Source of the DNA: Runella sp. MFBS21
GTDB lineage: Bacteria > Bacteroidota > Bacteroidia > Cytophagales > Spirosomataceae
Length of the DNA stretch: 64,000 bases
NCBI RefSeq assembly: GCF_029433105.1
Contig: NZ_JARNTW010000006.1
Span: 186,001-250,000 of the forward strand
Reading direction: 5' to 3'
The notes below the pieces were generated by a model. That model saw only the letters and a list, made by a program, of their open reading frames with translations, had not been told where the DNA came from and ran no database searches. The position numbers were made by a program, and so were the translations under genes. Shown one piece after another: positions 11,703-58,818 of this stretch (its first letter is position 1; every line of letters begins with the position of its first letter).

Positions 11703-12776
11703 ATGATTAACGTTACCAAAACCTACCTTCCCGATTTTGACCAATATGTCGACTATTTAAGAAAAATCTGGGAAAGTGCATATCTTACCAACAATGGGCC
11801 TCTTGCCCAACAACTTGAAGAGGACCTCAAAAAATATTTGGGTGTATCTTACCTGAATTTTTGTGGAAATGGTACGATCGTATTACAGATGGCGCTCAAG
11901 TTATTGAGCGAGCCAGGGGAAATTATCACAACTCCTTTCTCTTACGTAGCTACTACCAATGTCATTTTATGGGAAAACTATCAGCCCGTTTTTGTTGATA
12001 TTGATCCTAAAACATACTGCATCAATCCCGCCCTCATTGAGGCTGCAATTACCGAAAATACGCGGGCTATCATGGCAACACACGTCTATGGCAACGCCTG
12101 TGACGTAGAAGCAATTGAAAAAATTGCGAAAAAATACAATTTGGTAGTGATTTATGATGGTGCCCATGCTTTTGGGGCCAATTATCTTGGTAAATCATTA
12201 CTCTCCTATGGCGATTTTGCCACTTGTAGTTTTCATGCTACCAAGTTATTTCACACCATTGAAGGAGGTGCTATCATTACAAACAAAAAGGAATGGCACG
12301 AAAAACTTCACCTCATGCGTGCTTTTGGACACCGTGGCGATGATTACTTTTTCATGGGTATCAATGGTAAGAACTCCGAGATTCATGCAGCTATGGGGCT
12401 GTGTAATCTACCACTCGTATCAAAATTGATAGCTGCTCGTAAAGCAGTCTGTGATGTGTACACAGAGCTTCTTGACTGGACTCATCTTTCGGCTCCCGAA
12501 TGGGCGATGGGACTAGAGCGCAATTATGCCTACTATCCAGTAGTATTCGAATCCGAAGCAAAAATGTTGGCTATCAAAAAAGTACTAGGTCAACATGACA
12601 TCGTCCCACGGAGATATTTTTACCCTTCTCTCAATAAACTGCCATTTCTCTCCAATCCTGAGCCATGCCCTGTCTCAGAAGATATATCATTGAAGGTACT
12701 TTGTTTACCTCTTCATGCTGAACTTGCTCACGAAGATGTAGAGCGTATAGCTACCCTGATTAATCAACATTTATAG
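11703..12776 (+). CDS. DegT/DnrJ/EryC1/StrS sugar aminotransferase
   Basis: A 357-residue PLP-dependent enzyme. The ATG at 11703 was chosen; a longer frame from 11622 would run inside wzt. The fold-type I pattern is visible: a Gly-rich turn (FCGNGT, about 53-58), the PLP-pyridine Asp in VIYDGAHAFG (D152), and the Schiff-base Lys in SFHATKLFHTIEGG (K181). Family members transfer an amino group to a nucleotide-linked 3- or 4-keto sugar. No ketosugar-forming dehydratase is adjacent, so the substrate comes from elsewhere. It implies that the exported polymer contains an amino (possibly acylamino) sugar, consistent with the NeuD-like acyltransferase downstream. Confidence 0.88.
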   Translation: MINVTKTYLPDFDQYVDYLRKIWESAYLTNNGPLAQQLEEDLKKYLGVSYLNFCGNGTIVLQMALKLLSEPGEIITTPFSYVATTNVILWENYQPVFVDIDPKTYCINPALIEAAITENTRAIMATHVYGNACDVEAIEKIAKKYNLVVIYDGAHAFGANYLGKSLLSYGDFATCSFHATKLFHTIEGGAIITNKKEWHEKLHLMRAFGHRGDDYFFMGINGKNSEIHAAMGLCNLPLVSKLIAARKAVCDVYTELLDWTHLSAPEWAMGLERNYAYYPVVFESEAKMLAIKKVLGQHDIVPRRYFYPSLNKLPFLSNPEPCPVSEDISLKVLCLPLHAELAHEDVERIATLINQHL

Positions 12777-12927: not shown

Positions 12928-15006
12928 ATGATATTCATACAAAATTTTATTACACTGATTAGTTTTGCCCTGTTTATATACTATGTTGGACGTACAGCTG
13001 CAAAAATCTGCCGTCCATCATTGATTGAATGGCTCATTACCTCTTTTATCCTATTTGCTAGTAGTATTATTGTGACAGGTTATTGTCTATCGCCTCTGCA
13101 TCTTAGTGCGAATGTGTGGGCATGGGCACTCTCTGTTTTTATACCGCCTACTATTATCCAGTTGATATTTGGTCTACTTTCTCCGCAAACCACTCCATTT
13201 TCACCTTTACAGATGGCCATTAAGCGATGGCATGCTGCCCAACGATGGTATGCAAGTGCGGGAGTTTACTTGCAATTTTTGTTTGGGGTAATGATTGTAT
13301 CAGTAGCAGTTATAGGACTTATCAATTTAGTGTTAGTGCTTTTTACAGTACCCAATGAATGGGATAGCATGACTGGGCACCTCAATCGTGTCATCCAATA
13401 TATACAACGGGGTAGCATGGCTCATTTTGGTGGTACCAACTGGAATATAGACACTTACCCAAAAAGCGTATGTACGATTCAAATTTATTCGTATTTAATA
13501 ACTGGTAAATTTGAAAATGCTTTCAAGCTCATTCATCACGCTTCCTACTGGATTACCTTGGTATGTATTTTTGGTATTACACAACGCATTACCAAAAATC
13601 GGCTCAATGCTAGTTTTTTTTGTGCCCTAGCCTTTGCCATGTTTCTAGATTTTTTGATGCAAGCCATCACTACCGAAACCGACATTGTACTTGCAGCATA
13701 TCTAAGTTGCTTACTTTATTTTTTATTTACTTACCAAGTAACCAAAGAAAACCGCTATTTGTACCTAGCCGCTTTGAGTTTTGGAGTAGTATATGGTCAT
13801 AAAGTCACATTTACTTTACTTTTGCCTTCTGTTTTTATCGTAATGCTTTATACAGTATTTCTTAAAAGCAAAACTCAAGACAGGGCTTCAGTAAGTCTTA
13901 GCCTCAACTGGCCCGCCATCTTCAAACTCGGAACAGCCATAGTGATTTGCTTTTGTATTTGGACTTTACCCACTGGATATGTCAAAAATATCCAAGTATT
14001 TGGGCATCCTATTGGTCCTCCTACTTCCCTCAAGCACCAATCAATCGAAAGAGCTACTTCAAACGGAGGCTTCCGCAATTTGTTTGAGCAAGGCTCTCGC
14101 AATGCGGTAAGGTATGGGTATGATTTTGTCAATCTCGATGGCTTGCGAAATATCAAAATAGGTCAAGACATCAACCGCGGTATGCGCAAACCTTTGGTAT
14201 GGCTAGAAGATAAGCTCAAAATGCGTTTAGACGAAACTACGGAGTTTTCGATTGTACCTTTTTCTTTTGAACGCCGTTTTGAATTTTTCAACGGAAATCC
14301 TTATTGGGGAATTTTTGGATTTGCATTGGTATTTCCTCTCGTGTTTTTGGTATTGTTCGGAATCGTGCGTTCGCCGGCTCACTGGTTTTTAGCGATAGCT
14401 TTATTGTTGCATTTTGCAGCGTTATCATATTCAGCTCCCTATGACCCTTGGAAGGGACGTTATTTTCAGGAAACGGGAGTGTTTGGGGTACTATTCTTAT
14501 CTCTTCTTTTTACGCATAAATATAGCCTCGCCAAATCTGGCTATTCGGTAGCGCTCAAAACATACGTCGGTATTGTGACAGTGGTAGCTTGTATTTCAGC
14601 ATTACTTTCGGTTTTCCTCAATGTTCGTTGTCTTCCATTTCCAGCATTGGGCAAGCCTTCTGCCTTCAAAACTGAACGAATTGCAATGATGACTTTTGCT
14701 CGTCCTGATATTACGAAAGCTTATCAAAAATTCGATCAAATAGTTCCTGACTCCGCAACCGTAGCCTTGGGAACAATCAACGACGATTTTGAATATCCAC
14801 TCTATGGAAAGCATCTTTCTAGGAAATTAATCACCATCAATCCTTTTGAGAAAGGAGTACAGCCTATTCCTAAAGAAGCAGATTACCTTTTCTTTTCAAA
14901 GAATGTAATCCCACCTTTGCCAACAGACTTACGCTTAGGGACAGATACTACCATGAAAGGACTCATTGTACCAGGAGAAGATTATTACCTTCGCAAACTG
15001 AAATAA
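12928..15006 (+). CDS. GT-C-like polytopic membrane protein, probable lipid-linked sugar transferase
   Basis: A 692-residue membrane protein with about twelve hydrophobic segments. After the second or third helix an acidic first luminal loop reads NEWDSMTGHLNRV (about residues 142-154) followed by aromatic and Gly residues. This arrangement is typical of GT-C glycosyltransferases (GT39/ArnT-like), in which an acidic residue in the first loop is catalytic and the donor is a polyprenyl-phosphate sugar. The soluble C-terminal tail (about 560-692) is family-specific. Substrate unknown; assignment to GT-C rests on the loop pattern and topology, not a full domain match. Confidence 0.6.
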   Translation: MIFIQNFITLISFALFIYYVGRTAAKICRPSLIEWLITSFILFASSIIVTGYCLSPLHLSANVWAWALSVFIPPTIIQLIFGLLSPQTTPFSPLQMAIKRWHAAQRWYASAGVYLQFLFGVMIVSVAVIGLINLVLVLFTVPNEWDSMTGHLNRVIQYIQRGSMAHFGGTNWNIDTYPKSVCTIQIYSYLITGKFENAFKLIHHASYWITLVCIFGITQRITKNRLNASFFCALAFAMFLDFLMQAITTETDIVLAAYLSCLLYFLFTYQVTKENRYLYLAALSFGVVYGHKVTFTLLLPSVFIVMLYTVFLKSKTQDRASVSLSLNWPAIFKLGTAIVICFCIWTLPTGYVKNIQVFGHPIGPPTSLKHQSIERATSNGGFRNLFEQGSRNAVRYGYDFVNLDGLRNIKIGQDINRGMRKPLVWLEDKLKMRLDETTEFSIVPFSFERRFEFFNGNPYWGIFGFALVFPLVFLVLFGIVRSPAHWFLAIALLLHFAALSYSAPYDPWKGRYFQETGVFGVLFLSLLFTHKYSLAKSGYSVALKTYVGIVTVVACISALLSVFLNVRCLPFPALGKPSAFKTERIAMMTFARPDITKAYQKFDQIVPDSATVALGTINDDFEYPLYGKHLSRKLITINPFEKGVQPIPKEADYLFFSKNVIPPLPTDLRLGTDTTMKGLIVPGEDYYLRKLK

Positions 15007-15062: not shown

Positions 15063-15761
15063 ATGCATCTAGGAATCATGCAGCCTTATTTTATGCCTTA
15101 CATTGGGTATTTACAACTCATGAATGCCGTGGATAAGTTTGTGGTATATGATGACGTTAACTATATTAATAAAGGGTGGATTAATCGTAACAGGATTTTA
15201 GTAAATGGACAAGAGCATTTATTTACCATTCCACTACAAGACGCTAGCCAAAACAAACTTATCAATGAAATTTCATTGAGTAAAGACCCAAAATGGCGAG
15301 GGAAATTTCTGAAAACACTCGAACAAGCATACAAAAAAGCCCCCTTTTATTTTTCGGCTTTTGCAGTCACCGAAAAAATTATCAATTTAGACGCCGAAAA
15401 AGTAAGTGACTGGATATGTAGTAGTTTGTTGGTTTTAAGAGACTATTTGGACATGCAAGTAGAAATCATACCAAGTTCAAGTATTTATCAAAATACTCAC
15501 TTAAAAGCCCAAGAAAGAATCCTTGATATTTGTAAACAAGAAAACGCCAGTCACTATACTAACCCCATCGGAGGAACGGAGCTATATGACAAAAATATTT
15601 TTGAGCAAACCGATATCCAATTGAGTTTTATAAAATCTAAATCTATTGAATACCCACAGTTCAAAAATGAATTTGTTCCTTGGCTTTCTATCATAGACAT
15701 CATGATGTTTAATGATCTAGCCACCATCCAAGGTTTTTTAAACGAATACGAATTAGTTTAA
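15063..15761 (+). CDS. WbqC family protein
   Basis: A 232-residue protein that starts with the family signature (IMQPYFMPYIGYLQL, residues 5-19, then YDDVNYINKGWINRN). WbqC-like proteins occur in O-antigen and capsule loci next to sugar aminotransferases and acyltransferases; a role in modifying amino sugars has been suggested, but a reaction is not established here. The position between a GT-C protein and the NeuD-like acyltransferase fits that pattern. Length is normal. Confidence 0.88.
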   Translation: MHLGIMQPYFMPYIGYLQLMNAVDKFVVYDDVNYINKGWINRNRILVNGQEHLFTIPLQDASQNKLINEISLSKDPKWRGKFLKTLEQAYKKAPFYFSAFAVTEKIINLDAEKVSDWICSSLLVLRDYLDMQVEIIPSSSIYQNTHLKAQERILDICKQENASHYTNPIGGTELYDKNIFEQTDIQLSFIKSKSIEYPQFKNEFVPWLSIIDIMMFNDLATIQGFLNEYELV

Positions 15762-15818
15762 CCATTTTGAGTATAGAGTATCGAATTGGATACTTCACAC
15801 TTTTTACACTTAACATAC

Positions 15819-16472
15819 ATGGCGAAGGTTGTAATTTTTGGAGTACTAGATACCGCAGAATTAGCGCACTTTTACTTAACTCACGATTCCGAACACGATG
15901 TAGTGGCCTTTACGGTCAATCAAGAATATTTAAAAGAAACTACTTTTTGGGGACTCCCGGTAGTAGCATTTGAAGACGTAGAAAAGTTTTTCCCTCCTGA
16001 TGAATTTAAGTTTTTTGCTCCTATGACAGGCCGCAAAATGAACAAAAATCGGGAAAAAGTTTACCTAGAAGCAAAAGCAAAAGGGTATGAATTTATTTCT
16101 TATATCAGCTCAAAAGCAACTTGGTTTGGCAATGAAATCGGTGAAAATTGCTTTATCTTAGAAGATAACACGATTCAGCCTTTTACAAAAATTGGCAATA
16201 ATTGTGTACTCTGGAGTGGCAACCACATCGGTCATCACGGTCTTATCAAAGACCATGTTTTTTTTACTTCTCATGTGGTATTATCGGGGCATTGCTTAGT
16301 AGAATCCTATTGTTTTTTTGGGGTAAACTCTACCATTCGCGACTATACTACTATTGCTGAAGGTACACTCGTTGCGATGGGAGCCTCTATCACCAAAAAC
16401 ACTGAAGCTTGGGGCGTATATATGGGTAACCCAGCCGAAAAAAGACCCACCCCAAGTTATAAGGTTTATTAA
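15819..16472 (+). CDS. NeuD/PglD-like sugar O/N-acyltransferase
   Basis: A 217-residue protein; the ATG at 15819 (MAKVVIFG) is preferred to the longer frame from 15786 because the Rossmann-like N-terminal strand begins there. The C-terminal half is a left-handed beta-helix of imperfect hexapeptide repeats, with the active-site-like His pair in NHIGHHG (about residues 136-142). This two-domain architecture is that of NeuD/PglD acetyltransferases. With the aminotransferase at 11703 and WbqC it could make an N-acylated amino sugar, or it could O-acetylate a repeat-unit sugar. The substrate cannot be decided from sequence. Confidence 0.8.
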   Translation: MAKVVIFGVLDTAELAHFYLTHDSEHDVVAFTVNQEYLKETTFWGLPVVAFEDVEKFFPPDEFKFFAPMTGRKMNKNREKVYLEAKAKGYEFISYISSKATWFGNEIGENCFILEDNTIQPFTKIGNNCVLWSGNHIGHHGLIKDHVFFTSHVVLSGHCLVESYCFFGVNSTIRDYTTIAEGTLVAMGASITKNTEAWGVYMGNPAEKRPTPSYKVY

Positions 16473-25265: not shown

Positions 25266-25275
25266 AAAAAAATCA

Positions 25276-25292: not shown

Positions 25293-25351
25293 AAAATCAA
25301 GGACTATCTTTAACAAACGAATTCACCAAAGACTATAAATAAAAATCTATT

Positions 25352-26068: not shown

Positions 26069-26082
26069 TCAATTAGTATAGC

Positions 26083-27381: not shown

Positions 27382-27401
27382 ACCCTACTTCACAATCTTA
27401 A

Positions 27402-28967: not shown

Positions 28968-28982
28968 AATTTTGTTTAAACT

Positions 28983-30512: not shown

Positions 30513-30515
30513 ACT

Positions 30516-48302: not shown

Positions 48303-49340
48303 ATGCGACTTACTCCGCGTATTATTGCTTTTTTGCTCGCATTATTTATATCGACTATTACAGTCGCTTTCTTATCTTTTGTCAATGCTACGACTACAAG
48401 TATGCTTTTTGTAGCGGGTCTTGCCAGTTTTGCAGGTTCTTTTTTCCTCATTATGTACGCTATCGAAATCTTGGTTTATCGAGAAGTCACCAAAATGCAC
48501 AAAACCATTCAGCGTCTCAAACTTAAAGACTTTAATTTTCCACGCAAAACGATCGTCAGCAACCCCAATCCCCTTAAGAAGTTAAATCAAGAGATTTTTG
48601 TTTACGTAGCCAAAAAGCAGCAGGAAATTGATGAGCTAAAAAAACTCGAAGTATTTAGAAGGGAGTTTTTGGCCGATGTATCGCATGAGCTCAAAACCCC
48701 GATTTTTGCGGCCCAAGGCTTTATACATACACTTTTGGACGGCGCTATGGACGACGAAAAAGTGCGTGATAAATTTCTGCAAAAAGCCGCAAAAAGTCTG
48801 GATGGGCTAGATGCCCTTGTAAAAGATTTGGTAGCACTTTCCCAAATGGAAACTGGTGATATTAGAATGCATAAAGAACGGGTGGATTTGCGGCTTATTA
48901 CCCTTGATGTATGTGAACAACTCGAAAACAAAGCCAATCAACGCAATACCATTCTCAAAATTAAGCCCGACCAAATGCAACATGTATGGGTCAAAGCTGA
49001 TCCACAACGTATCAATCAAGTGATGACAAATTTGATTGAAAATGCTATCAAGTACGGCAATGATAATGGCAAAGTGATTGTGCATTTTGAAGAAGAGAAA
49101 AAACATTATGTAGTGTCGGTACGTGACAATGGCCCTGGAATCCCGTCAGAACATTTGTCACGTATTTTTGAAAGGTTTTATAGAGTCGACAAAAGTCGTT
49201 CACGTGAAAAAGGAGGTACTGGGCTTGGATTGGCGATTGTCAAACATATTATCAACGCCCACGGCTCCAAAATTACGGTCACTAGCAAGATAGACAAAGG
49301 CACTACTTTTGCCTTCAAATTGGACAAAGCAGAGATGTAA
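48303..49340 (+). CDS. PhoR-like sensor histidine kinase
   Basis: A 345-residue membrane kinase. Two transmembrane helices (about 7-27 and 34-57) are separated by a very short outside segment, so it has little or no periplasmic sensor domain. The HisKA helix carries DVSHELKTPIFA with the phosphorylated H128, and the ATPase domain has NLIENAIKYG (N box), VRDNGPGIP (G1) and GTGLGLAIV (G2). No response-regulator gene lies next to it, so the partner is elsewhere. Absence of a sensor domain suggests sensing through another membrane protein, such as a phosphate transporter. Confidence 0.88.
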   Translation: MRLTPRIIAFLLALFISTITVAFLSFVNATTTSMLFVAGLASFAGSFFLIMYAIEILVYREVTKMHKTIQRLKLKDFNFPRKTIVSNPNPLKKLNQEIFVYVAKKQQEIDELKKLEVFRREFLADVSHELKTPIFAAQGFIHTLLDGAMDDEKVRDKFLQKAAKSLDGLDALVKDLVALSQMETGDIRMHKERVDLRLITLDVCEQLENKANQRNTILKIKPDQMQHVWVKADPQRINQVMTNLIENAIKYGNDNGKVIVHFEEEKKHYVVSVRDNGPGIPSEHLSRIFERFYRVDKSRSREKGGTGLGLAIVKHIINAHGSKITVTSKIDKGTTFAFKLDKAEM

Positions 49341-49428
49341 GTAAAGCGAACTTTTGCGTTTTATTTGTTCTAACATTATTAAAATCAATCATCCTCAAAC
49401 TAGCTGTAGGCTTAATTAACTTATTTTA

Positions 49429-49466
49429 CGGATTAGGCTGATTGAACTTTTTTGACTTATTTTACG
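49429..49466 (+). repeat. 12-bp direct repeat upstream of the epimerase gene
   Basis: ACTTATTTTACG occurs at 49429-49440 and again at 49455-49466, 26 bp apart (start to start). The spacing is about 2.5 helix turns. It could be a pair of protein sites in the 190-bp leader of the second sugar locus. Confidence 0.4.
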
Positions 49467-49530
49467 CCCTAAAACTGAGAAAAATAGAAATTTTCCAATA
49501 TTAACAACACTTCAAAAAGACGCTTTTTGT

Positions 49531-50604
49531 ATGAACATTGCACTTGTCACTGGTTCGGCTGGGTTGATTGGAAGCGAGTCGGTCGCTTTTTTTGCTGATA
49601 AATTTGACCTCGTCATTGGGGTAGATAATAACTTACGCCAATATTTCTTTGGCCAAGATGGAAATACCGAATGGAATCGAAATCGTATCCAAGAGTCTTA
49701 TTCCAACTATAAACATTATAGTGCTGATATTCGAGAAGTAAGCCAATTAGAGCCTATTTTCAAAGAATATGGTGCTGATATTAAGCTTATTGTACATACT
49801 GCGGCACAGCCTAGCCACGATTGGGCAGCACGCGAGCCTTTCACTGATTTTGGGGTAAACGCAGTAGGTACGCTCAATATGCTCGAAATGACCCGCCTAA
49901 ACTGCCCTGAAGCGGTCTTTATTTTTACTTCTACCAACAAAGTATATGGCGATAATCCCAATTACTTACCCCTTGTTGAGTTAGAAACTCGCTGGGAAAT
50001 TTCGGAAGACCATGCTTACTTCAAAAACGGAATCGATGAGCATCATAGCCTTGATCATACCAAGCACTCTATCTTTGGTGCCTCTAAGGTAGCCGCCGAT
50101 ATTATGTGTCAAGAATATGGCCGCTATTTTGGGATGAAAGTGGGTGTATTCCGCGGTGGTTGTTTGACGGGTCCTAATCACTCAGGTGCACAGCTTCATG
50201 GTTTCTTAGCTTATCTCATGAAATGTACAATCACGGGTAATCCCTATATCATTTTTGGTTATAAAGGAAAACAAGTACGTGACAATATCCACAGCTATGA
50301 CCTTGTAAATATGTTTTGGCATTACTACCAAAACCCACGCCCAGGAGAAGCTTATAATGCTGGTGGTGGCCGTTTTGCCAACTGCTCGATGTTGGAAGCG
50401 ATTGCAATTTGCGAAAAAATAGCCGGTAAAAAACTAACCTACCACTATTCGGATACCAACCGTATCGGTGACCATATTTGGTATGTAAGTGATTTAACTA
50501 AATTTAAGAGCCACTACCCTGATTGGAATTGGACTTACAACCTTGAACAGACCTTGGTTCAGATTCATGATGGTATTGCCGCTCGTTTGGCATCGCATGT
50601 TTAA
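49531..50604 (+). CDS. NAD-dependent sugar epimerase, CDP-tyvelose 2-epimerase-like
   Basis: A 357-residue extended SDR enzyme. The GxxGxxG nucleotide site is [10 protein letters not shown] (G8, G11, G14), a Ser/Thr triad position is FTSTNKVYG (about 132-140), and [18 protein letters not shown] plus [13 protein letters not shown] match the tyvelose/paratose 2-epimerase group. The catalytic YxxxK is FGASK here (F182, K186), so the usual Tyr is Phe. It probably epimerises a nucleotide-linked sugar for the locus that follows. Substrate unproven. Confidence 0.75.
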
Positions 50605-50607
50605 GGA

Positions 50608-50622
50608 TTGTCGTCCCGACAA
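50608..50622. repeat. hairpin just after the epimerase stop codon
   Basis: TTGTCG-TCC-CGACAA is a perfect 6-bp inverted repeat 3 bp after the stop codon. No T tract follows. A second stem (ATTATCC at 50644-50650 with GGATAAT at 50669-50675) lies further downstream. Confidence 0.4.
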
Positions 50623-50706
50623 GCCATATCCATACATATTGAGATTATCCGCTGTTATAAGTTTTTGAGGGATAATTCTTTGATTTGATAGCCGACAACG
50701 AAACAC

Positions 50707-51648
50707 ATGACCTCAAAGTACGTCATACTTATACCACAATACAATGATTGGGATGCGCTGAGTTTGCTCATTCAACGTATCAACGAAGACGTAGCGGCCG
50801 ATATACTGGCTGCTACGTCTTTGGTTATTGTAGACGACTGTTCTAACAAGGATTTTGAGACTTTAACCACCTTCAAAGGGCTTAAGACTCAAATCGTCCG
50901 TCTTTATCGAAACCTTGGCCACCAGCGTGCCATTGCTATCGGCCTTTCTTATATTTCTCAAGAAGTAACTTGCGAAAAGGTAATCGTGATGGATGCCGAC
51001 GGAGAGGACGCCCCTAAAGATATCAATGCCTTGGTAGAAGCCTCTCAAAAATTTCCTGACCGTATCATTTTTGCCCAACGTACCAAACGCCAAGAAAGCC
51101 TTACTTTTAGGGTTTTTTATGCTATTTATAAGTTTGTATTTAAACAACTTACGGGAAAAATCATCACATTCGGCAACTTTTCACTTGTTCCTCAAAGACG
51201 TTTACAAAACCTAGTACGCGTTTCGGAAATCTGGAACAACTTTCCTGGGGGAATTATTCGTTCTAAAATCCCTTATGAAGCAGTACCTACTGAACGAGGC
51301 AAACGTTTAGCAGGAGAAAGCAAGATGAATTTTGTTTCTCTGGTTTTACATGGACTCAGTACCGTATCTGTTTTGATTGATATTACAGCCGTTCGAATCC
51401 TTATTTTTTCGATTGGAATGTCAGTAACAGCCTTGGTAGTAATATGTATAGTACTTTTTTTGAAATGGATTAACGATGCCTCACCAGGGTGGGCTTCTAC
51501 GCTAAGTTCTGCTTTACTGATTGTGGTATTACAGTCCTTCCTAATTTCGCTGTTTTTGGTATTTATGGTTCTACAATACCGTACCCAACAGCAGTTCATT
51601 CCGGTACTTCAATACCGCGACTTTATTGAGCAAGTTGAAGAAATATAA
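50707..51648 (+). CDS. GT2 polyprenyl-phosphate glycosyltransferase (GtrB/DPM1-like) with two membrane helices
   Basis: A 313-residue enzyme. The GT-A domain starts YVILIPQYNDWDAL, has VDDCSNKDFE (about 40-49) and VMDADGEDAPKD (about 96-107) with the metal-binding DAD. Two C-terminal transmembrane helices (about 236-256 and 268-292) anchor it, as in GtrB. It should load a sugar on polyprenyl phosphate for the GT-C enzyme encoded 47 bp downstream. The NLGHQRAIAIGL acceptor segment is present. Confidence 0.82.
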   Translation: MTSKYVILIPQYNDWDALSLLIQRINEDVAADILAATSLVIVDDCSNKDFETLTTFKGLKTQIVRLYRNLGHQRAIAIGLSYISQEVTCEKVIVMDADGEDAPKDINALVEASQKFPDRIIFAQRTKRQESLTFRVFYAIYKFVFKQLTGKIITFGNFSLVPQRRLQNLVRVSEIWNNFPGGIIRSKIPYEAVPTERGKRLAGESKMNFVSLVLHGLSTVSVLIDITAVRILIFSIGMSVTALVVICIVLFLKWINDASPGWASTLSSALLIVVLQSFLISLFLVFMVLQYRTQQQFIPVLQYRDFIEQVEEI

Positions 51649-51695
51649 AGTTCGGGAGAAGAAGAGATTTCTACAGATAAAGATTAACGTGCAAG

Positions 51696-53315
51696 GTGAT
51701 AAGTTTTGATGATTTTCCGATAGTATACTTCGCTTTAGGCTATGTGTTAGCTATCGGGATTGTTTTGATTTTACTTTTACAGACCAATCTTCCTTCTTTT
51801 TCTCGCATTTTTATCGGGTTATCGCTTTTTCTTGTGGCTTTTATGCGATTGCCTATCTTGGTTTTCAATCAAGAAATCAATCCCGACGAAAGTCAGATGA
51901 TTGCCCACGCGATTACGCTCAAACAATTTCCTCTTTATTGGCAGTCTGTGGATGGTACTACGATTGGTCCTTTAGATAATTATGCCCTTATTTTACCTTC
52001 CCTTTTTGGCCTTCCCTTTGATTATACTTCGGCACGGCTCATGGGTCTTCTGTGTGTCTTAGGCAGTCTCTGGTTTTTCTATCAAAGCCTCATTCATTTT
52101 TTTGATAAGACTACCGCCCAGCTTTCACTATTGCCTGTTGTATTTTTTGTAGCCTTTACTCAAGAAGTCGATTTTGTACATTATTCTAGCGAGCAGTTGC
52201 CTGTTTTATTACTCAACATCGGACTATGGCTGTTGAGCAAAATAACTTCTGCCTCCCGTCTCAAACAACCTTCTCTAAATACCATTTTCTTTTTAGGAGT
52301 AGTACTTAGTATGAGTCCTTTTGCCAAAATTCAAGTAGTGCCCCAAGCAGTGGTGATTGGTGCTTTTGCGCTTGTAAGCTTATGGAACAATCGGTTATTC
52401 TGGCAATATTTTTTATACTTAATTGCTGGAAGTTTATCATTTCTTGGAATTGTACTTTTAACTATAGCCTCTTTCGGCGTACTCGACGACTTTTGGGATT
52501 ATTATATTCTAGGCAATCTTATTTATGCCAGTGGGAGTTCTCTCATTGACGCCATTGCACGGTTACCTTTTTTCATTGCAAAAAGTAATTCATTTTTACT
52601 TTTTCTCGCCAGTATTTCACTTTGTGTTATTCTGGTAGGACTACAACATAAGAAAAAGTCTTTCAAAATGACTTGGCTCGAGGCATTCGTATTTGCTTGG
52701 TTACTAGCTGCTCTTTTTGCGGCCACAAAATCTGGCAACGATTTTCTCCATTATCTCAACTTTTGCATTTATCCTTTTGCCCTTTTAGGAGCTATTTTAA
52801 TAGCACACTATACCCTCAAGACGCCTTTCAAATTGGTGATGGCGGCGGCCTTATCCCTTTTACCTTTTTTAGGAGCGTTTGCATATCCAGTCGTTAGGCA
52901 TTTACCACTCAATGCTTATGTATCAGGAGCTAGCCACCAAGTTCCGAGAAGCGAGGTATCGAAATTGATTTTAAAATATGCTCATCCAGGAGAAAGGCTA
53001 GTGATATGGGGATGGATGTGTCGCTATCATGTAGAAACTCAAATGCCCCAAGGCACTGCCGAAAATCACTCCGAAAGGTGTATTTATCCTCATCCTCTGC
53101 GCCAAAAATATTATGAGCGCTTTTTGAGTGATTTGCAAAAAAATCAACCCAAGGTATTTGTAGATGCAGTAGGGCCGAATAGCCTCTGGCTCAACGACCC
53201 AGCTACGCAAGCCCACGAAAAGTTTCCTAAACTGAAAGCTTTCATTTCAGAGCATTATCATTTTATAGGTGAAGTAGAACATACCCGAGTGTATATCCGA
53301 AATACCAAAAAATAA
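51696..53315 (+). CDS. GT-C/GT39-like membrane glycosyltransferase
   Basis: A 539-residue polytopic protein starting at a GTG with CAAGG just upstream; no nearby in-frame ATG is better. After the second helix the first extracytoplasmic loop has NQEINPDESQMIAHA (about 58-72), the acidic D/E pattern of GT39-like enzymes. About ten helices follow and a soluble C-terminal domain (about 430-539) contains a WGWMCRYHVET segment. It should use the polyprenyl-phosphate sugar made by the GT2 enzyme upstream. Acceptor unknown. Confidence 0.65.
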   Translation: MISFDDFPIVYFALGYVLAIGIVLILLLQTNLPSFSRIFIGLSLFLVAFMRLPILVFNQEINPDESQMIAHAITLKQFPLYWQSVDGTTIGPLDNYALILPSLFGLPFDYTSARLMGLLCVLGSLWFFYQSLIHFFDKTTAQLSLLPVVFFVAFTQEVDFVHYSSEQLPVLLLNIGLWLLSKITSASRLKQPSLNTIFFLGVVLSMSPFAKIQVVPQAVVIGAFALVSLWNNRLFWQYFLYLIAGSLSFLGIVLLTIASFGVLDDFWDYYILGNLIYASGSSLIDAIARLPFFIAKSNSFLLFLASISLCVILVGLQHKKKSFKMTWLEAFVFAWLLAALFAATKSGNDFLHYLNFCIYPFALLGAILIAHYTLKTPFKLVMAAALSLLPFLGAFAYPVVRHLPLNAYVSGASHQVPRSEVSKLILKYAHPGERLVIWGWMCRYHVETQMPQGTAENHSERCIYPHPLRQKYYERFLSDLQKNQPKVFVDAVGPNSLWLNDPATQAHEKFPKLKAFISEHYHFIGEVEHTRVYIRNTKK

Positions 53316-53367
53316 GTTTTAGGTGAGGAAACACCTCTCAAAACTGTCAACTTTAATGAAGTTAATT

Positions 53368-53375
53368 TATTTTTG
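53368..53375 (+). promoter_or_regulatory. -7 element before the methyltransferase operon
   Basis: TATTTTTG matches TAnnTTTG exactly, 22 bases before the ATG at 53398. A -33 element at the right distance is not clear. Confidence 0.35.
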
Positions 53376-53397
53376 AATCTTTAGAATATCATCATAA

Positions 53398-54275
53398 TGA
53401 CACGTCAGCAATTCCTTGACTCTTTGGTATGCCCCAAAACGGGACAAAATTTAGAAGTTGCCGAAAATGGCCTTTCTCTTACTGCTCCTGACGGCACTGT
53501 ATATCCGGTATTGGATTCGGGTATCGTAGACATGGTATATCCACGCGAATTGTTTGAAGACGATGCTCGTGAGCAATATCTATATGATCAAGCATATCAG
53601 CGTTATGACCGAGGAGTATCGTGGGTATTTGAGACCTTAAATCACTCGGACGAAGCAGCCACTCGTCAGTTTATGATTGGTTTAATGGACCTCAAACCTG
53701 GCCAAACGGTATTGGAAGTAGGCGCTGGTACAGGTAAAGATTCGGCATTGATTATTGACCAAATTAGCCCTGGTGGCACCGCTGTTTTGTCGGATTTATC
53801 TCACAACATGCTAAAACTAGCCACCCAAAAGCTACAGCCTAAGGAAGTGAATACTCATTTCTTTTTAGGAAATGGCTCTTATCTTCCTTTTGCAGATGGT
53901 ACCTTCGATGCAGTGTTTCACTTTGGCGGTATCAATACTTTCTCAGAGCGTAAAAAAGCTTTTGCGGAGCTTACCCGCGTTGTGAAAGTAGGCGGCAAAG
54001 TAGTGATTGGCGATGAAAGTATGGCGCCTTGGCTACGCAACAATCCCACCTATGAGATTTTATGGAAGGCCAATCCGCTATTTAGAGCCGAGGTACCTTT
54101 CGAAGACTTGCCCAACACGGTCGAGAATTTTAAACTTCACTATATTTTCGGAAACTGCTTTTATGTAATGGAATATACCGTGGCCGCCAAAGCTCCCGAA
54201 ATCGACATAGAGTTACCTATTCCAGGAAAAGATTTTGTGGATAATTGGCGCATTCGTGCCGAAAAAAGTAACTAA
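53398..54275 (+). CDS. class I SAM-dependent methyltransferase with N-terminal Trm112-like segment
   Basis: A 292-residue protein whose ATG is at about 53397-53399. The N-terminal ~45 residues (FLDSLVCPKTGQNLE) look like a Trm112/zinc-ribbon segment but with only one Cys of the usual set, so zinc binding is doubtful. The methyltransferase domain shows VLEVGAGTGKDSALI (about 102-116) as the SAM Gly loop, LSDLSHNML (about 131-139) and FDAVFHFGGINTF (about 172-184). It resembles UbiE-like small-molecule methyltransferases. In this locus it may methylate a sugar or lipid carrier group. The start of the ORF is at 53397 or 53398 within counting error. Confidence 0.8.
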
Positions 54276-54326
54276 ACAGCTTCCGTAAATCAAGCAGCAA
54301 AAGCTTATCTGAAATTTTGATTTTAT

Positions 54327-55262
54327 ATGTGGCAAAAAAAAGGAGTAATATATAAACCTGACGGTACAATGGCTCATAGCCGTACTCACGCTCAGGTACC
54401 GTTTGCGTACAAACACGAAAACTTTTTACGGATTTACTTTTCTTCGCGCGATGACAATGGCCAATCTCGCCCTACCTTTATTGACGTAGATTACGAGGAT
54501 CCTACCAAAATCATTTATATTCACGACCGCCCTATTTTGGAACTAGGTGGCCCAGGTGAATATGACGAAACAGGCGCGATGCCTGCGTGGTTTGTGGATA
54601 TGCCCAATGGCGATATTTGGCTCTACTACACAGGCTGGAATCGTACTCATAATTCATATCGCTTATCGATGGGCCTATCGGTAAGTCATGATGGAGGAAT
54701 TACTTTCAAAAAAATGTTTACGGGTCCAATTATGGATCGCAGTATTCAGAATCCTATTTGGGCAGCACAGCCCTCAGTGATACGCGAAGATGATGGCACT
54801 TGGCGCATGTGGTATATCTCCGGACATAAATGCGAGTATATTCATGGCTATCCTGAGCCTTATTACCGTGCGCAATCTGCCACTTCACAAGACGGTATAC
54901 ATTGGAATATCAGCGACATCCCGACTTTAGATTTTGATGATTTTTTGCACGCTGTGGGGCGTCCTAGCGTTTTTAAAGAAGACGGTATTTATAAAATGTA
55001 TTATTCATATCGCCACACGCGAGACTATCGCACTGACCGCAATCAAAGCTACCGATTGGGATATGCTGAATCATTAGATGGCGAAACTTGGGAACGGAAA
55101 GATCATTTAGTAGGTATTGAGAAGTCAGAAAACCCAGAAGACTTTGATTATCAAATGATTGATTACGCCAATTATTATACCCACAACGGCAAAAAGTACT
55201 TACTTTACAACGGCAATGGTTTTGGAGCGGCAGGATTTGGGTATGCGATTTGGGAAGATTAA
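54327..55262 (+). CDS. five-bladed beta-propeller protein, glycosidase-like (GH43/GH32/GH130 fold)
   Basis: A 311-residue protein without a signal peptide, so probably cytoplasmic. Repeated blade signatures are visible: FLRIYFSSRDDNGQSR, DIWLYYTGWNRTHNSYRLSMGLSVSHDGG, WRMWYISGHKCEY, and IYKMYYSYRHTRDYRTDRNQSYRLGYAESLDG. These Tyr/Trp-rich strands ending in SxDG are typical of the GH43/32/68/130 clan. Acidic candidates lie in DETGAMPAW (about 71-79). Cytoplasmic location in a glycan operon fits a phosphorylase or a sugar-binding factor better than a secreted hydrolase. No activity can be fixed. Confidence 0.65.
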   Translation: MWQKKGVIYKPDGTMAHSRTHAQVPFAYKHENFLRIYFSSRDDNGQSRPTFIDVDYEDPTKIIYIHDRPILELGGPGEYDETGAMPAWFVDMPNGDIWLYYTGWNRTHNSYRLSMGLSVSHDGGITFKKMFTGPIMDRSIQNPIWAAQPSVIREDDGTWRMWYISGHKCEYIHGYPEPYYRAQSATSQDGIHWNISDIPTLDFDDFLHAVGRPSVFKEDGIYKMYYSYRHTRDYRTDRNQSYRLGYAESLDGETWERKDHLVGIEKSENPEDFDYQMIDYANYYTHNGKKYLLYNGNGFGAAGFGYAIWED

Positions 55263-55374
55263 AGATTTGGAACATTTATTGCAGATTTGATTATTGAATT
55301 TTGACTAATGTCATTCTTTCAAAGGAATTTGTGAGATAAAATTGGGGGTTGTTAAACCAAAAAATCCAAGTAAG

Positions 55375-56211
55375 ATGTCAACATTAAAAGAACAATTCCG
55401 CAGAGAGGGATTTCTCCTCCTTCGTAATTTTTTAGATAAAAGTGTGGTAGAAAATATCTACCGTGAGGCACGTGAAATATTTGCCATCCAGATCAAAAGG
55501 GTCACAGGGCGAACGGTAGATATCAACAACCGCGATGAGTTTGAAAATGCAATGTTCGAGTTTTTTGAAAAAGACTTCATAGCATTTCGTAATACCGGCA
55601 TTACCGTACAGCATAGCCTTTCGCTTCACCGCTTTGCTACCGATGAGAAAATCGTCAATTTACTGAAAGAAATAGGAATCGAACTCCCCGTCATTGGGGC
55701 GCGTCCTGCCATGCAATTCAACAGCCGTTTTCTTTCAAAAGATGGTAGTAAACACTGGAAATTGGATGCGCATCAAGATTGGCGTACAGGGCAAGGCTCT
55801 CTAGATAGTACTGTTATTTGGTTCCCAATGGTAAATGCAGGCGCTGATTTAGGTGCCTTACAGGTCATTCCCCAAAGCCATAAGTCAGGACTTTTGGCAG
55901 CAAGTACTTCAGGCTATCAAGGGGGTATCACTGCTTCTTTAAAAGACGAAGATTTTGTTCAAACTGAGTTTGAAGTAGGTGATTTACTTATTTTTTCTGC
56001 CTTTTTAGTACATCAGTCTGGCAACAACATCACCCCTAATATCCGCTGGTCGGTACAGCTTAGATACAACAACCTCTCTGAGCCTACTTTTATTGAAAGA
56101 GGGTATCCGATGGCCTATATCTATAAGCCAGAGGCAGAGCTTGTTACTCCTAATTTCCCCACTGTAGAGCAATTAGAAACCGTTTTTGCGGCTCCAACGC
56201 CAGTAGTATAA
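55375..56211 (+). CDS. phytanoyl-CoA dioxygenase (PhyH)-like Fe(II)/2-oxoglutarate oxygenase
   Basis: A 278-residue protein; the ATG at 55375 (MSTLKEQFRREGF) is preferred to the TTG at 55342. The iron facial triad is H133 and D135 in DAHQDW with H213 in LVHQSG, and R224 (RWSVQLR) can bind 2-oxoglutarate. The domain covers about 10-240. Some PhyH-like proteins hydroxylate or oxidise sugars or lipids, so it may modify a nucleotide-linked or lipid-linked sugar here. The stop codon overlaps the start of the next GT2 gene by one base. Confidence 0.82.
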   Translation: MSTLKEQFRREGFLLLRNFLDKSVVENIYREAREIFAIQIKRVTGRTVDINNRDEFENAMFEFFEKDFIAFRNTGITVQHSLSLHRFATDEKIVNLLKEIGIELPVIGARPAMQFNSRFLSKDGSKHWKLDAHQDWRTGQGSLDSTVIWFPMVNAGADLGALQVIPQSHKSGLLAASTSGYQGGITASLKDEDFVQTEFEVGDLLIFSAFLVHQSGNNITPNIRWSVQLRYNNLSEPTFIERGYPMAYIYKPEAELVTPNFPTVEQLETVFAAPTPVV

Positions 56212-57182
56212 TGAAAGTAAGCGTCGTCATTCTCACCTACAATCAAAAAAACTTCATAGGCAAGGCTATTGAAAGCGCCCTTGCCCAAGAAACCAATTTC
56301 GATTTCGAAATATTAGTGGGTGATGATTGCTCCACAGATGGCGCGCAAGAAGTGATTCAAGGCTATCAAAATCAGTATCCTGATAAAGTAAAGGCTATTT
56401 TGCATTCCAAAAATCTGGGGCAAAATGGCCTTTTCAATACCATCGAAACCCTTAAATTGGCGACCGGAGACTACATTGCGCCAATGGACGGAGACGACTA
56501 TTGGACTTCACCCCACAAATTACAAATCCAAGTAGACTTCATGGAAGCTAATCCGAGCTTTTCGGCCTGCTTTCACAATGCACTCATTACTTATGAAGAT
56601 GGTACGCCCTCTCATGAGCTCAACAGCCCAGATCAAAAAACAATTATTACTGTTGAAGATTTGGTAGGCGAAGACGAAATTTGGTTCATGGCTACCTCGG
56701 CCGTTATGTTCAAAAACGGCCTCATGTATTACCCCGAATGGTTTTTACAATCTACTAGCGGTGACATACCTAGATACGTCATCCTAGCCAAACAAGGTCC
56801 TATTGGGTATGTTTCGGGAGTAATGTCGGTATATCGGAAAAATCGCGGTGGAGCTAGCTTTAGAGATCATTATAAAGATGCTCGTTTTCTTTACAATCGT
56901 ATCAAAATGTACGAGGGTATCAATAAAGAACTCGGTCAACAATATGATGATTTATTAAAAAGAAACATTGCTCGATATTATAAAATGCTACTCGAAGCTC
57001 GTCAATATCAAAAAAGTTATTTTAGACGGGCTAACTTAGCCATAAAATACCTTGAATTGGGAAAACCTGACCGCGAGACCACTAGAGAAGTAGTGAGAGA
57101 TTATATCATACCCAAATGGATGATGCAAGTTTATAGCTTCTTTGCCCTTCTTCCTCACCGTCTGAAAGAATCATCCCGATGA
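56211..57182 (+). CDS. GT2 family glycosyltransferase, tandem copy 1
   Basis: A 323-residue GT-A enzyme. It starts VSVVILTYNQKNFIGKAIES, has GDDCSTDGAQEVI (about 38-50) and PMDGDDYWTSPHKL (about 92-105) with the GDDYW signature of capsule and O-antigen GT2 enzymes. The C-terminal ~90 residues (from about 230) form an extension. The neighbouring 57179 gene is paralogous; both share the SPDQK/QPDQK and VEDL/IEDL segments. It overlaps the dioxygenase gene by one base and the next gene by four. Confidence 0.87.
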   Translation: MKVSVVILTYNQKNFIGKAIESALAQETNFDFEILVGDDCSTDGAQEVIQGYQNQYPDKVKAILHSKNLGQNGLFNTIETLKLATGDYIAPMDGDDYWTSPHKLQIQVDFMEANPSFSACFHNALITYEDGTPSHELNSPDQKTIITVEDLVGEDEIWFMATSAVMFKNGLMYYPEWFLQSTSGDIPRYVILAKQGPIGYVSGVMSVYRKNRGGASFRDHYKDARFLYNRIKMYEGINKELGQQYDDLLKRNIARYYKMLLEARQYQKSYFRRANLAIKYLELGKPDRETTREVVRDYIIPKWMMQVYSFFALLPHRLKESSR

Positions 57183-57994
57183 AAGTAAGCGTCTGTGTCC
57201 CGACTTTCAATCATGAGAAATACATTCGGGAAATGATTGAAGGAACCCTGAATCAAAAAACTGACTTTCCGTTTGAAATTGTAATAGGCGACGATGGTTC
57301 TACGGATATGGCTCCCGCTATCATCCAAGAGTATGCACAACGGTTTCCTGACATCATCAGAGCGTATTTACATCCTCAAAACTTAGGGCCATCTTTTCCT
57401 AAAGAGTTTGCAGGGCGTAACAATGTCCTCTTTTTGTTAAAAGCTTGCCAAGGAGATTATGTAGCTCTGTGTGAAGGAGATGACTACTGGACTGACCCTT
57501 ATAAACTCCAAAAACAAGTTGATTTTTTAGAATCAAATCCTGATTTTGCGATTTGCCACCACAACTTGAGCGTTATTTATGAAGATGGCTCACCAAGTCA
57601 TTTCTTCAATCAGCCAGACCAAAAAGCAACATCGACTATTGAAGATTTGTTAGAAGACCGTTGGTTTGTAGGGACGGCCAGTTTAATGTATCGCAATTTT
57701 TTCAAAACAGAAGATTTTGCACTCTGGCATCATCGAGCTGCTGCGGGTGATTGGGCTTTAGTAATCCAACTCGCCGCCCAAGGTAAAATCGGATATCTCA
57801 ACGAAACGATGGGTATTTATCGAAAACATCGTGCGGGGTTGAGCAATATTCATGCGACCTCCAATTTGGATTTTCTTCGTAATCGACGCCAAATGTTTGC
57901 AGATGTGAATGAGTGGCTACATTTTAAATACAACGACATTGCTCAAAAAACTATTGAGAAATACGACCATTTGATTCAAGAAATTGGAAATTAG
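57179..57994 (+). CDS. GT2 family glycosyltransferase, tandem copy 2
   Basis: A 271-residue GT-A enzyme, paralogue of the upstream gene. It has VSVCVPTFNHEKYIREMIEG, GDDGSTDMAPAII and CEGDDYWTDPYKLQKQVDF. It carries an insertion before the GDDYW motif (KEFAGRNNVLF) and lacks most of the C-terminal extension of copy 1. The duplication probably gave two transferases with different acceptors. It overlaps the upstream gene by four bases (ATGA). Confidence 0.87.
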   Translation: MKVSVCVPTFNHEKYIREMIEGTLNQKTDFPFEIVIGDDGSTDMAPAIIQEYAQRFPDIIRAYLHPQNLGPSFPKEFAGRNNVLFLLKACQGDYVALCEGDDYWTDPYKLQKQVDFLESNPDFAICHHNLSVIYEDGSPSHFFNQPDQKATSTIEDLLEDRWFVGTASLMYRNFFKTEDFALWHHRAAAGDWALVIQLAAQGKIGYLNETMGIYRKHRAGLSNIHATSNLDFLRNRRQMFADVNEWLHFKYNDIAQKTIEKYDHLIQEIGN

Positions 57995-58080
57995 GGCAAA
58001 ATAAAAGAGTTTTGCACCCACAAGAGTCGTCAAAATACGAAGGCTCCAAATTGCCTCTCACTCATTCATGATGTAGATAA

Positions 58081-58818
58081 ATGAAATTAAGTGTTGTTAT
58101 TCCTGCCTATAACGAACAAGATTCTCTGCCCCAAACCTTGCAGACGCTCTATGCTTCTTTATCCAAACATAATATTCCCCACGAAATTTGGGTTACAAAC
58201 GACAACTCCAAAGACAATACCCTCGAAGTTTTAAATAATCTATCAAAAGAAATACCCACCTTGGTGTATGAAACCAATCTTGGCCCTAACGGGTTTGGAT
58301 ATGCGGTGCGTTATGGATTGGAGCGTTTTTCGGGTGATTGCGTAGCGGTCTTTATGGCCGACCTTTCCGATGATCCCGAAGACTTGGTAAAGTTTTATAA
58401 AAAAATGTTGGAAGGAAACTACGATGCTGTATTTGGAAGTCGCTGGGGTAAAGGAGGGAAAGTATATGACTATCCTACGGTAAAAAAGGTAGTGAACCGT
58501 CTCGCCAACTTTATCATTCGGATGGTAATGGGAATCAAATACAACGACACCACCAACGCCTTCAAGCTCTATAAACGTGAGACAATGGAAGGGCTCAAAC
58601 CTTTTCTTTCACCCCATTTCAACCTTACTGTAGAGCTTCCCCTCAAAACAATCGTGAGAGGATACTCATACGCTGTGGTTCCAAACAGCTGGACCAATCG
58701 TAAATTCGGAGAATCTAAATTAAAAATCAAAGAAATGGGTAGTCGCTATTTCTTTATTTTGATGTATTGCTTTATTGAAAAGTTCTTCTCTCGCGGTGAT
58801 TACCGCAAAAAAAGCTAG
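58081..58818 (+). CDS. GT2 dolichol/polyprenyl-phosphate mannosyltransferase-like enzyme
   Basis: A 245-residue GT-A enzyme without a membrane helix. LSVVIPAYNEQDSLPQTL starts the nucleotide-binding fold, TNDNSKDNT is the next loop and VAVFMADLSDDPEDL (about 89-103) the metal-binding DLSDDP motif. Similar enzymes make polyprenyl-phosphate sugars for GT-C transferases. It lies 86 bp after the GT2 pair and its end overlaps the convergent gene by four bases. Confidence 0.85.
   Translation: MKLSVVIPAYNEQDSLPQTLQTLYASLSKHNIPHEIWVTNDNSKDNTLEVLNNLSKEIPTLVYETNLGPNGFGYAVRYGLERFSGDCVAVFMADLSDDPEDLVKFYKKMLEGNYDAVFGSRWGKGGKVYDYPTVKKVVNRLANFIIRMVMGIKYNDTTNAFKLYKRETMEGLKPFLSPHFNLTVELPLKTIVRGYSYAVVPNSWTNRKFGESKLKIKEMGSRYFFILMYCFIEKFFSRGDYRKKS

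Follow-up and report, generated by a model that had tools for sequence, protein, structure and literature searches.

A 64,000-nucleotide stretch of Runella sp. MFBS21 DNA (contig NZ_JARNTW010000006.1, positions 186,001 to 250,000; hereafter, the window) contains five genes in a row on one strand. They encode an S-adenosylmethionine (SAM) methyltransferase (MTase), a β-propeller protein (PROP), a PhyH-family Fe(II)/2-oxoglutarate (2OG) oxygenase (PhyH), and two GT2 glycosyltransferases (GT2b and GT2c). Which pathway do these genes serve, and on what do their products act? The enzymes that place methyl, hydroxyl, and acyl groups on many bacterial surface sugars are unknown. An earlier note on this DNA described the same row, which the open reading frames (ORFs) match, and proposed that the set tailors a sugar inside the cell. 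Its author knew of no described pathway with these exact genes, and we likewise found no description of an MTase-PROP-PhyH-GT2 set in the open-access literature. Probably, these genes form the tailoring half of a surface polysaccharide pathway that depends on an ABC transporter, with PROP, MTase, and PhyH acting on a cytoplasmic glycan precursor.

The five-gene operon is the tail half of a polysaccharide cluster with an ABC exporter, and this cluster is whole in some relatives. In Flectobacillus (locus L075), a single cluster runs through Wzm, Wzt, DegT, a GT-C-like membrane protein, WbqC, NeuD, MTase, PROP, PhyH, and GT2. Arcicella (L076) has the same order from Wzm to PhyH, with GT2 one gene later. 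In the window, the head genes (positions 9569-16472) stand in the relatives' order, and the tail starts at position 53397, about 37 kb away, with other genes between. We call the operon the tail half because head genes, in the order in which relatives have them joined to it, occur in the same window. In an Emticicia locus (L093), two small ORFs separate the membrane protein, WbqC, and NeuD genes from those for MTase, PROP, and PhyH, and apparent amino acid biosynthesis genes stand upstream in place of Wzm-Wzt-DegT. In locus L124, the Wzm-to-NeuD genes are followed by PROP, PhyH, and GT2 without an MTase, and in L113 and L114 by only PROP and GT2.

The head genes were recognized with our own hidden Markov models (HMMs). 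These models placed an ABC-2 permease and an ATPase beside sugar genes in the window, and the names Wzm and Wzt were given by reading and context. In locus L124, the DegT family member belongs to PF01041, with DesI as the closest NCBIfam model (below its cut-off). The MEM27 family member there matches PMT_2, and the NeuD family member falls just under TIGR03570 (151.5 bits; cut-off, 160.8 bits). WbqC was found in all 61 genomes of the window's family, with the window copy accounting for its own genome. By a hand count at E < 1e-60, a full-length WbqC was present in 47 of the 49 genomes that have PROP; the two genomes without it are 82% and 66% complete.

The earlier note had suggested a search for the same neighborhood in other Bacteroidota, and we found it kept in several genera. 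A scan of genome contigs gave 79 loci with PROP relatives, 57 of which had a member of the MTase cluster and 57 a member of the PhyH cluster. The order MTase-PROP-PhyH followed by GT2 occurs in Runella, Dyadobacter, Arundinibacter, Larkinella, Flectobacillus, and Arcicella (L076, with one gene between). The PROP gene is 100% identical to that on a Runella zeae DSM 19591 contig (L031), where the neighboring genes are 93 to 100% identical. In Dyadobacter (L040), the set lies at a different chromosomal place, between genes that read as amidohydrolase and dxr/mreB. Identities between the window and Dyadobacter are 86 to 89% for PROP, 74 to 76% for MTase, and 75 to 80% for PhyH.

In the 61 family genomes, MTase and PhyH behave as accessories of PROP and never occur without it. 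PROP is present in 49 of these genomes. MTase orthologues occur in 23, all of which have PROP. PhyH matches (E ≤ 1e-10) occur in 29, again all with PROP, and 25 of them are orthologue-like (at least 41% identity). The other four (G086, G190, G201, and G220), with 31 to 33% identity, were left out of the orthologues; all come with a distant PROP subtype. Among the 49 genomes with PROP, 21 have both MTase and PhyH, 2 have MTase only, 4 have PhyH only, and 22 have neither (Fisher P = 7e-8, uncorrected for relatedness). The genes need not be neighbors. In G260, PROP, MTase, and PhyH are on three contigs (C39, C23, and C64), at least several kilobases from the contig ends, and the MTase keeps its epimerase neighbor. 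PROP and PhyH are 537 kb apart in G114, and PhyH is on a different contig from PROP and MTase in G294. The grouping is not due to chance, because MTase and PhyH are always found with PROP in these genomes, even when the genes are unlinked.

The accessories follow the PROP subtype. With the close subtype (at least 67% identity to the window), MTase is present in 23 of 25 genomes and PhyH in 21 of 25. With the distant subtype, MTase is present in none of 24 genomes and PhyH in 4 of 24 (8 of 24 counting the four matches of 31 to 33%). In genera g126 and g140, where both subtypes are found, MTase tracks the subtype, not the genus. In a quick phylogeny built from 87 PROP proteins (reduced from 112 by thinning the Dyadobacter rows), the close subtype is one clade with an SH-aLRT support of 100, and its members without MTase lie at the base. 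The long branch of L072 was disregarded as a wrong ORF call.

The earlier note had called PROP a GH43/GH130-like propeller without a signal peptide. The AlphaFold2 model is confident (predicted local distance difference test [pLDDT] score, 94.3; predicted template modeling [pTM] score, 0.93), and the model and its structural matches show the five-bladed β-propeller typical of GH130. Its top structural match is BT_0996 (PDB 5mt2), with Z = 29.6, a root mean square deviation (rmsd) of 3.4 over 289 residues, and 16 to 17% identity. The GH130 enzyme 9fj8 matches with Z = 29.0 and an rmsd of 2.3 over 268 residues, and 7fip with Z of about 29; matches within 1 Z were counted as tied. By sequence profile, the nearest PDB entries are GH130 phosphorylases (9fj8 at 3.5e-16), and the fold and profile neighbors named in the PDB are GH137, GH130, GH43, and GH117. 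Therefore, the propeller part of the claim is borne out as a GH130/GH137-like fold; the lack of a signal peptide agrees with an N terminus in which we found no hydrophobic stretch, by reading only.

PROP apparently lacks the catalytic Asp of GH130. The invariant catalytic Asp of GH130 is Asp142 of BT3780, beside Glu141 (PMC4599007). In the compared chains, we took the Asp of the E-D-P-R stretch as catalytic by motif. This Asp aligns with PROP R212 or P86, depending on the alignment register, which is uncertain because the blades repeat internally. We examined both columns in 72 dereplicated PROP sequences, 28 of them viral. The seven commonest letters at R212 are nonacidic and cover 66 sequences (R in 28, K in 11, and S in 10), and those at P86 are nonacidic and cover 71 (P in 57). 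S214, two residues past R212, is Asp in 9 of 72 sequences. The best-kept acids are D80 (69 of 72) and D274 (67 of 72), which lie in similar blade motifs; W2, R41, Y163, Y242, and N297 are also conserved. We propose D80 and D274 as candidate catalytic carboxylates, and they are direct targets for mutants.

Two simpler accounts of PROP were rejected. It is not a plain GH130 phosphorylase, as it fails the Pfam GH130 model (no match to PF04041 at E ≤ 0.1) and apparently does not keep the catalytic Asp. Three other loci of the same genome match PF04041 at E ≤ 1e-10. PROP reaches no Pfam cut-off at all; its matches to BNR_2 and GH32N are weak and below cut-off. A circular permutation relative to GH130 was considered since profile matches were out of order, with PROP 124-257 on chain residues 2-135 and PROP 28-107 on chain residues 204-285. 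We dropped it because the unrotated order scored as well as rotated ones in hhalign. Local scores were 38.8 unrotated versus at most 38.5 rotated with one GH130 set and 87.5 versus 87.4 with the other. Global scores were 34.1 versus at most 29.2 with one set, but 68.3 versus 70.3 with the other.

The other proteins of the operon are as the earlier note had described them. MTase matches Methyltransf_11/25 and UbiE-like models of Pfam and NCBIfam and scores 65.1 bits with PF08241 (cut-off, 21.2 bits). PhyH scores 70.6 bits with PF05721 (cut-off, 22 bits). Its residues H133, D135, H213, and R224 (counting from the ATG at 55375) are invariant in 24 homologues; from their positions in an HxD...H motif, we take the first three to be the metal ligands and R224 to be the 2OG-binding Arg. 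With the TIGR04324 "sporadic carbohydrate cluster" oxygenase model, PhyH scores 36.4 bits and a Paraglaciecola relative 43.3 bits, below the curated cut-off of 150 bits. GT2b and GT2c score 92.4 and 86.4 bits with PF00535 (cut-off, 23.3 bits), and each contains GDDYW. The same genome holds eight PhyH-family matches, among which the operon PhyH is the fifth best to the Pfam model.

PROP relatives also turned up on 70 viral contigs when IMG/VR was scanned. For neighbor counts, we used 37 cellular and 29 viral dereplicated clusters, drawn from the loci with at least three ORFs on each side (103 of the 116 cellular loci and 63 of the 70 viral ones). A methyltransferase, oxygenase, WbqC, or NeuD gene lies within five ORFs of PROP in 33 of 37 cellular clusters and in all 29 viral clusters. 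In the viral clusters, an oxygenase gene adjoins PROP in 12 and is within five ORFs in 18, and a methyltransferase gene is within five ORFs in 15. Our ORF caller keeps the longest ORF at each place, and antisense ORFs hide some genes (such as PhyH in L079, seen by tblastn); therefore, neighbor counts are lower bounds. Neighbors were named with our own cluster HMMs, mostly by reading, and some members were checked in Pfam and NCBIfam.

Several of these contigs resemble prophages. In L187 (2296-4356), PROP lies between an endolysin gene and a gene for a homologous MTase, with tail fiber and baseplate genes. In L190 (2043-4157), it lies next to an endolysin gene and near genes for the same type of MTase, a tail fiber, and the central fiber J. 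L188 (3107-5212) reads like L190, with an MTase homologous to that of the window. In L202 (2723-5056), PROP is near genes for an O-antigen acetylase, a tail fiber, and a baseplate wedge, and in L236 (1-999) near tail fiber and baseplate genes. The L190 MTase is 35% identical to the window MTase over 284 columns, including HFGGIN and APWLR, and the lysis-region DNA of L190 is shared with Pseudomonas phages. Genes that modify the cell surface usually lie near the lysis and tail genes of prophages. PROP and MTase occupy this site, and a role in surface glycans is therefore supported. The prophage PROP genes with MTase or acetylase are candidate serotype conversion genes, and the MTase-PROP pair would be a small system for testing function. 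The prophage MTases (L187:3313-4356 and L190:3114-4157) also have about 50 extra C-terminal residues, which, judged by reading, look like a ribbon-helix-helix or HicB-like segment.

At the settings used, searches with four different PROP proteins found no match among 50,697 GenBank phage records, and six PROP proteins had no PHROG match. The PROP-acetylase DNA of L202 had no match in the GenBank phage records. Over 13 viral records, the terminase model PF03354 gave one match, below its cut-off. Therefore, the viral nature of these contigs rests on the PHROG matches of the neighbors of PROP. These are tail, baseplate, and lysis proteins in L187, L190, L202, and L236, a PhoH-like protein in L204, and ribosomal protein S21 in L226 and L238. 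Peptidase and HNH matches in L211 and L199 give weaker support, and the remaining contigs were accepted as classed by IMG/VR. Around PROP in L225 (1900-9569) and L247, on contigs of 459 and 177 kb that are classed as viral, lie genes for WbqC, NeuD, and both TauD-type and PhyH-type oxygenases, possibly a glycan cassette of large phages.

PROP recurs as an uncharacterized partner of surface-sugar gene sets in bacterial genomes as well as in archaeal metagenome-assembled genomes (MAGs) and on the viral contigs. It occurs in 61 of 291 genomes of the order. Across the phylum it is uncommon: at E ≤ 1e-20, 12 of 296 genomes have a match, and those in G352, G428, and G621 are partial, near 1e-22, and may be other propellers. 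The 99 of 116 PROP loci with at least 4 kb on each side formed 34 clusters at 75% identity. WbqC, DegT, and NeuD are each near PROP in 21 of these, methyltransferase and GT2 each in 19, NeuB in 8, and PseG in 7. A 2OG-type oxygenase is near PROP in 8, and 7 of these clusters also have a methyltransferase. Seven loci (L098, L101, L103, L106-L108, and L146) combine NeuB-type with PseG-type genes, named by reading, as in nonulosonate clusters. A Rhizobium leguminosarum plasmid carries DegT, transposase, WbqC, PROP, a second PROP-type gene (annotated as hypothetical and assigned by our own HMM), GNAT, methyltransferase, and glycosyltransferase, and a Tateyamaria plasmid has a similar order. Plasmid records label some PROP relatives "glycosylase" or "exo-alpha-sialidase," and other records call them hypothetical. 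Tandem PROP pairs occur in 5 of the 34 clusters. In L136, L139, L140, L180, and L182, which come from genomes of the order and from the Rhizobium and Tateyamaria plasmids, the tandem genes lie downstream of WbqC, and an acetyltransferase-like gene and a gene for a methyltransferase come after them. Gene context now ties PROP to sugar assembly in the bacterial phyla Bacteroidota and Pseudomonadota and also in archaeal MAGs and on viral contigs.

How might the two halves work together? The head half (Wzm, Wzt, DegT, the GT-C-like protein, WbqC, and the NeuD-like protein) would make and export a glycan with an N-acylated amino sugar or another unusual sugar of that kind, with DegT and NeuD building and N-acylating the amino sugar nucleotide. 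PROP may act on a sugar of this glycan while that sugar is still linked to a nucleotide or lipid in the cytoplasm. MTase would methylate the product of PROP, and PhyH would hydroxylate or otherwise oxidize the PROP-product sugar or its acyl group. The two GDDYW enzymes would then assemble the unit before export through Wzm/Wzt. We infer all of the substrates, the order of the steps, and the reaction of PROP, which could be that of a transferase or of a hydrolase/phosphorylase with D80 and D274. The conservation, the ABC export, DegT, WbqC, and NeuD partners, and the viral contexts give good support to a link with glycans and to tailoring in the cytoplasm. To that extent the earlier proposal of intracellular sugar tailoring stands; its restriction to the five genes does not, as these alone are not a complete pathway.

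Several observations weigh against reading the operon as the tailoring half of an export pathway. Full-length WbqC is kept in 8 of the 12 family genomes without PROP; therefore, head and tail are not obligate partners. WbqC and NeuD are without a proven reaction here. No MTase or oxygenase gene lies within five ORFs of PROP in 14 of the 34 clusters. The GT2 link is weak outside Cytophagales: GT2b/c HMMs match only 6 of the 70 viral loci, and the Emticicia loci, with MTase-PROP-PhyH, have no GT2 match after PhyH. Within the 25 close-subtype genomes, MTase is absent from G300 and G306, and PhyH is absent from these two and from G308 and G317 (G306 is 78% and G308 66% complete). The P values for co-occurrence, 0.0016 and 0.0007, ignore relatedness. 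The predicted PhyH model is too poor (pLDDT, 61.5) for reading a pocket or searching for fold relatives. The + strand from 49300 to 58818 shows no promoter pattern of the Bacteroidota type, and we found no Spirosomataceae glycan structure that shows the expected product.

What reaction might PROP carry out? One possibility, which we hold only tentatively, is that PROP is a cytoplasmic, inverting glycosyltransferase with a propeller fold like that of GT108, adding an unusual sugar that MTase and PhyH decorate. The Leishmania GT108 enzymes have the same five-bladed GH130 fold and are dual glycosyltransferase-phosphorylases, a precedent for a propeller that builds glycans (PMC8950772). The MTase, oxygenase, WbqC, or NeuD genes near PROP in 33 of the 37 cellular clusters and in all 29 viral ones agree with a transferase, as do the tandem pairs. 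The prophage-like contigs, whose only extra sugar gene in view is for an MTase or O-antigen acetylase, fit a sugar that is added and then decorated. However, most PROP sequences have no counterpart of the GH130-type catalytic Asp in either register, and GT2 enzymes are often already beside PROP. It is rather unlikely that PROP is instead a hydrolase or phosphorylase that proofreads or trims a cytoplasmic precursor or recycles a sugar, for example by releasing a wrongly modified sugar from its carrier. Its fold and profile neighbors in the PDB are hydrolases and phosphorylases, and an inverting hydrolase could make use of the conserved D80 and D274. If PROP were degradative, its linkage to MTase and oxygenase genes and its place in prophages would be hard to explain, and the "glycosylase" and "exo-alpha-sialidase" labels that would favor it are automatic names.

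PROP could also have no catalytic role, for example as a scaffold that binds the precursor sugar and offers it to MTase and PhyH, or it could be an isomerase or lyase. The restriction of MTase and PhyH to family genomes with PROP is expected if PROP presents their substrate, and the catalytic Asp of its nearest known enzymes is not kept. However, its strongly conserved polar residues resemble an active site, and PROP without MTase or PhyH is common, so that we think this account decidedly unlikely. That the five genes share no pathway and are grouped by chance or position in a gene-dense glycan region is highly improbable. The number of GT2 genes varies and some genomes retain PROP alone, as such a grouping would allow, but the set is kept in several genera at different chromosomal positions and retained when unlinked, and the same gene types surround PROP in distant taxa and on viral contigs. 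The tailoring reading itself has a bolder extension, which we regard as speculative and rather improbable. PROP would be a new family of cytoplasmic, propeller-fold, glycan-building enzymes (glycosyltransferases or transglycosylases with the carboxylates D80 and D274). It would fill a gap in the pathways of many bacterial and archaeal clusters of the WbqC/NeuD/nonulosonate type, and tailed phages would have adopted it, with a methyltransferase or acetylase, for serotype conversion.

We compared the set with known systems. It resembles Wzm/Wzt O-polysaccharide clusters in having Wzm, Wzt, aminotransferase, acyltransferase, glycosyltransferases, and methyltransferase, whole in relatives and in two pieces in the window. 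Unlike them, it has PROP and the PhyH oxygenase as recurring members; no Wzm/Wzt cluster with this pair was found in the open-access literature. With GH130 mannoside phosphorylases and hydrolases and with GT108, PROP shares the five-bladed propeller and the profile similarity to 9fj8. Unlike them, it does not match PF04041, is nonacidic at the GH130 catalytic position in at least 66 of 72 sequences, and sits in biosynthesis clusters. BT_0996, which we take to be GH137 and an exported glycan-degrading enzyme, is the top structural match, but the identity is low (16 to 17%). Known serotype conversion genes of prophages include those for O-antigen acetylase and gtr. PROP has a like position near tail fiber genes (L187, L190, L202, and L236), once beside an O-antigen acetylase gene; unlike them, it has no PHROG match (six proteins) or GenBank phage match (four queries) and is known here from genes alone. 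KdoO, the Kdo hydroxylase of Burkholderia and Yersinia lipopolysaccharide (LPS), offers a precedent for a dioxygenase that hydroxylates an LPS sugar (PMC5462993), but its gene context differs, and none of the 11 PDB sequence matches of the PhyH profile is named Kdo hydroxylase. The lfg protein O-glycosylation locus of Bacteroidota, stated for Bacteroides as the region from metG to the BF4306 orthologue (PMC8698959), was set aside: the accessible parts of published descriptions hold no matching gene set, and metG and BF4306 were not searched for.

The coordinates of the genes are collected in the table.

Features of the two halves, their flanks, and a protein family found near PROP or PhyH elsewhere (window positions unless a locus is named; aa, amino acids)
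Feature	Position	Strand	Details
Wzm, ABC polysaccharide exporter	9569-10411	+	own HMM, 312 bits
Wzt, ABC polysaccharide exporter	10447-11697	+	own HMM, 670 bits
DegT-type sugar aminotransferase	11703..12776	+	own HMM, 544 bits; in-frame upstream TTG at 11622
MEM27, large membrane protein, GT-C-like	12928..15006	+	own HMM
WbqC-like protein	15063..15761	+	PF08889 6e-72 at contig positions 201081-201722; own HMM
NeuD/PglD-like sugar acyltransferase	15786..16472	+	own HMM, 369 bits
EPIM, NAD-dependent epimerase, CDP-tyvelose 2-epimerase type	49531..50604	+	3e-36 to PDB 9rl0
GT2a, resembles polyprenyl-phosphate sugar synthases	50707..51648	+	PgfS/ArnC models, below cut-offs
MEMB, multi-pass membrane protein	51696..53315	+	GT-C-like by reading only
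MTase ("MT2"), class I SAM methyltransferase	53397..54275	+	292 aa; ORF and Pfam/NCBIfam
PROP, five-bladed β-propeller, GH130/GH137-like fold	54327..55262	+	311 aa
PhyH, PhyH-family Fe(II)/2OG oxygenase	55375..56211	+	likely ATG start; in-frame TTG at 55342
GT2b glycosyltransferase, GDDYW	56211..57182	+	1-base overlap with PhyH
GT2c glycosyltransferase, GDDYW	57179..57994	+	4-base overlap with GT2b
GT2d, DPM1/ArnC-like GT2	58081..58818	+	often found downstream of the five genes
HxH...H...RW family, 240-275 aa, near PROP or PhyH	L111:8731-9555, L117:8438-9262, L121:10415-11236, L131:4989-5789, L095:4112-4837		

The overlaps among the last three genes of the operon, taken from the ORF coordinates, agree with the earlier note. 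Two details of its layout need correction. The ATG of MTase is at 53397, not 53398, and the run is not limited to five genes. EPIM, GT2a, and MEMB (49531-53315) and GT2d (58081-58818) flank the five genes in the same orientation in every Runella locus of the 79-locus scan that covers the region, seven in all (L031, L032, L050, L053, and L057-L059). MEMB has no match in Pfam or NCBIfam. The start of PhyH is most likely the ATG at 55375 rather than the TTG at 55342, because most relatives begin at the corresponding ATG; the gap between PROP and PhyH is therefore 112 bp. Searches for promoters and terminators gave no useful signal. After the head half, 14 more ORFs lie at window positions 16558-32634, several of which read as glycosyltransferases or membrane proteins.

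Other oxygenase-like proteins accompany PROP in relatives. The neighborhoods in L111, L131, and L079 include a TauD-type protein. A 274-aa protein with HxH...H...RW adjoins PROP in the distant-subtype genomes L111, L117, and L121, and a relative of it adjoins PhyH in L131. It had no Pfam or NCBIfam match at E ≤ 0.01 and no meaningful PDB match. An alignment of its family with an HxD...H protein near PROP in L105 (21% identity) suggests that the two have the same fold. The HxH...H...RW family may be a three-His variant of the double-stranded β-helix oxygenases.

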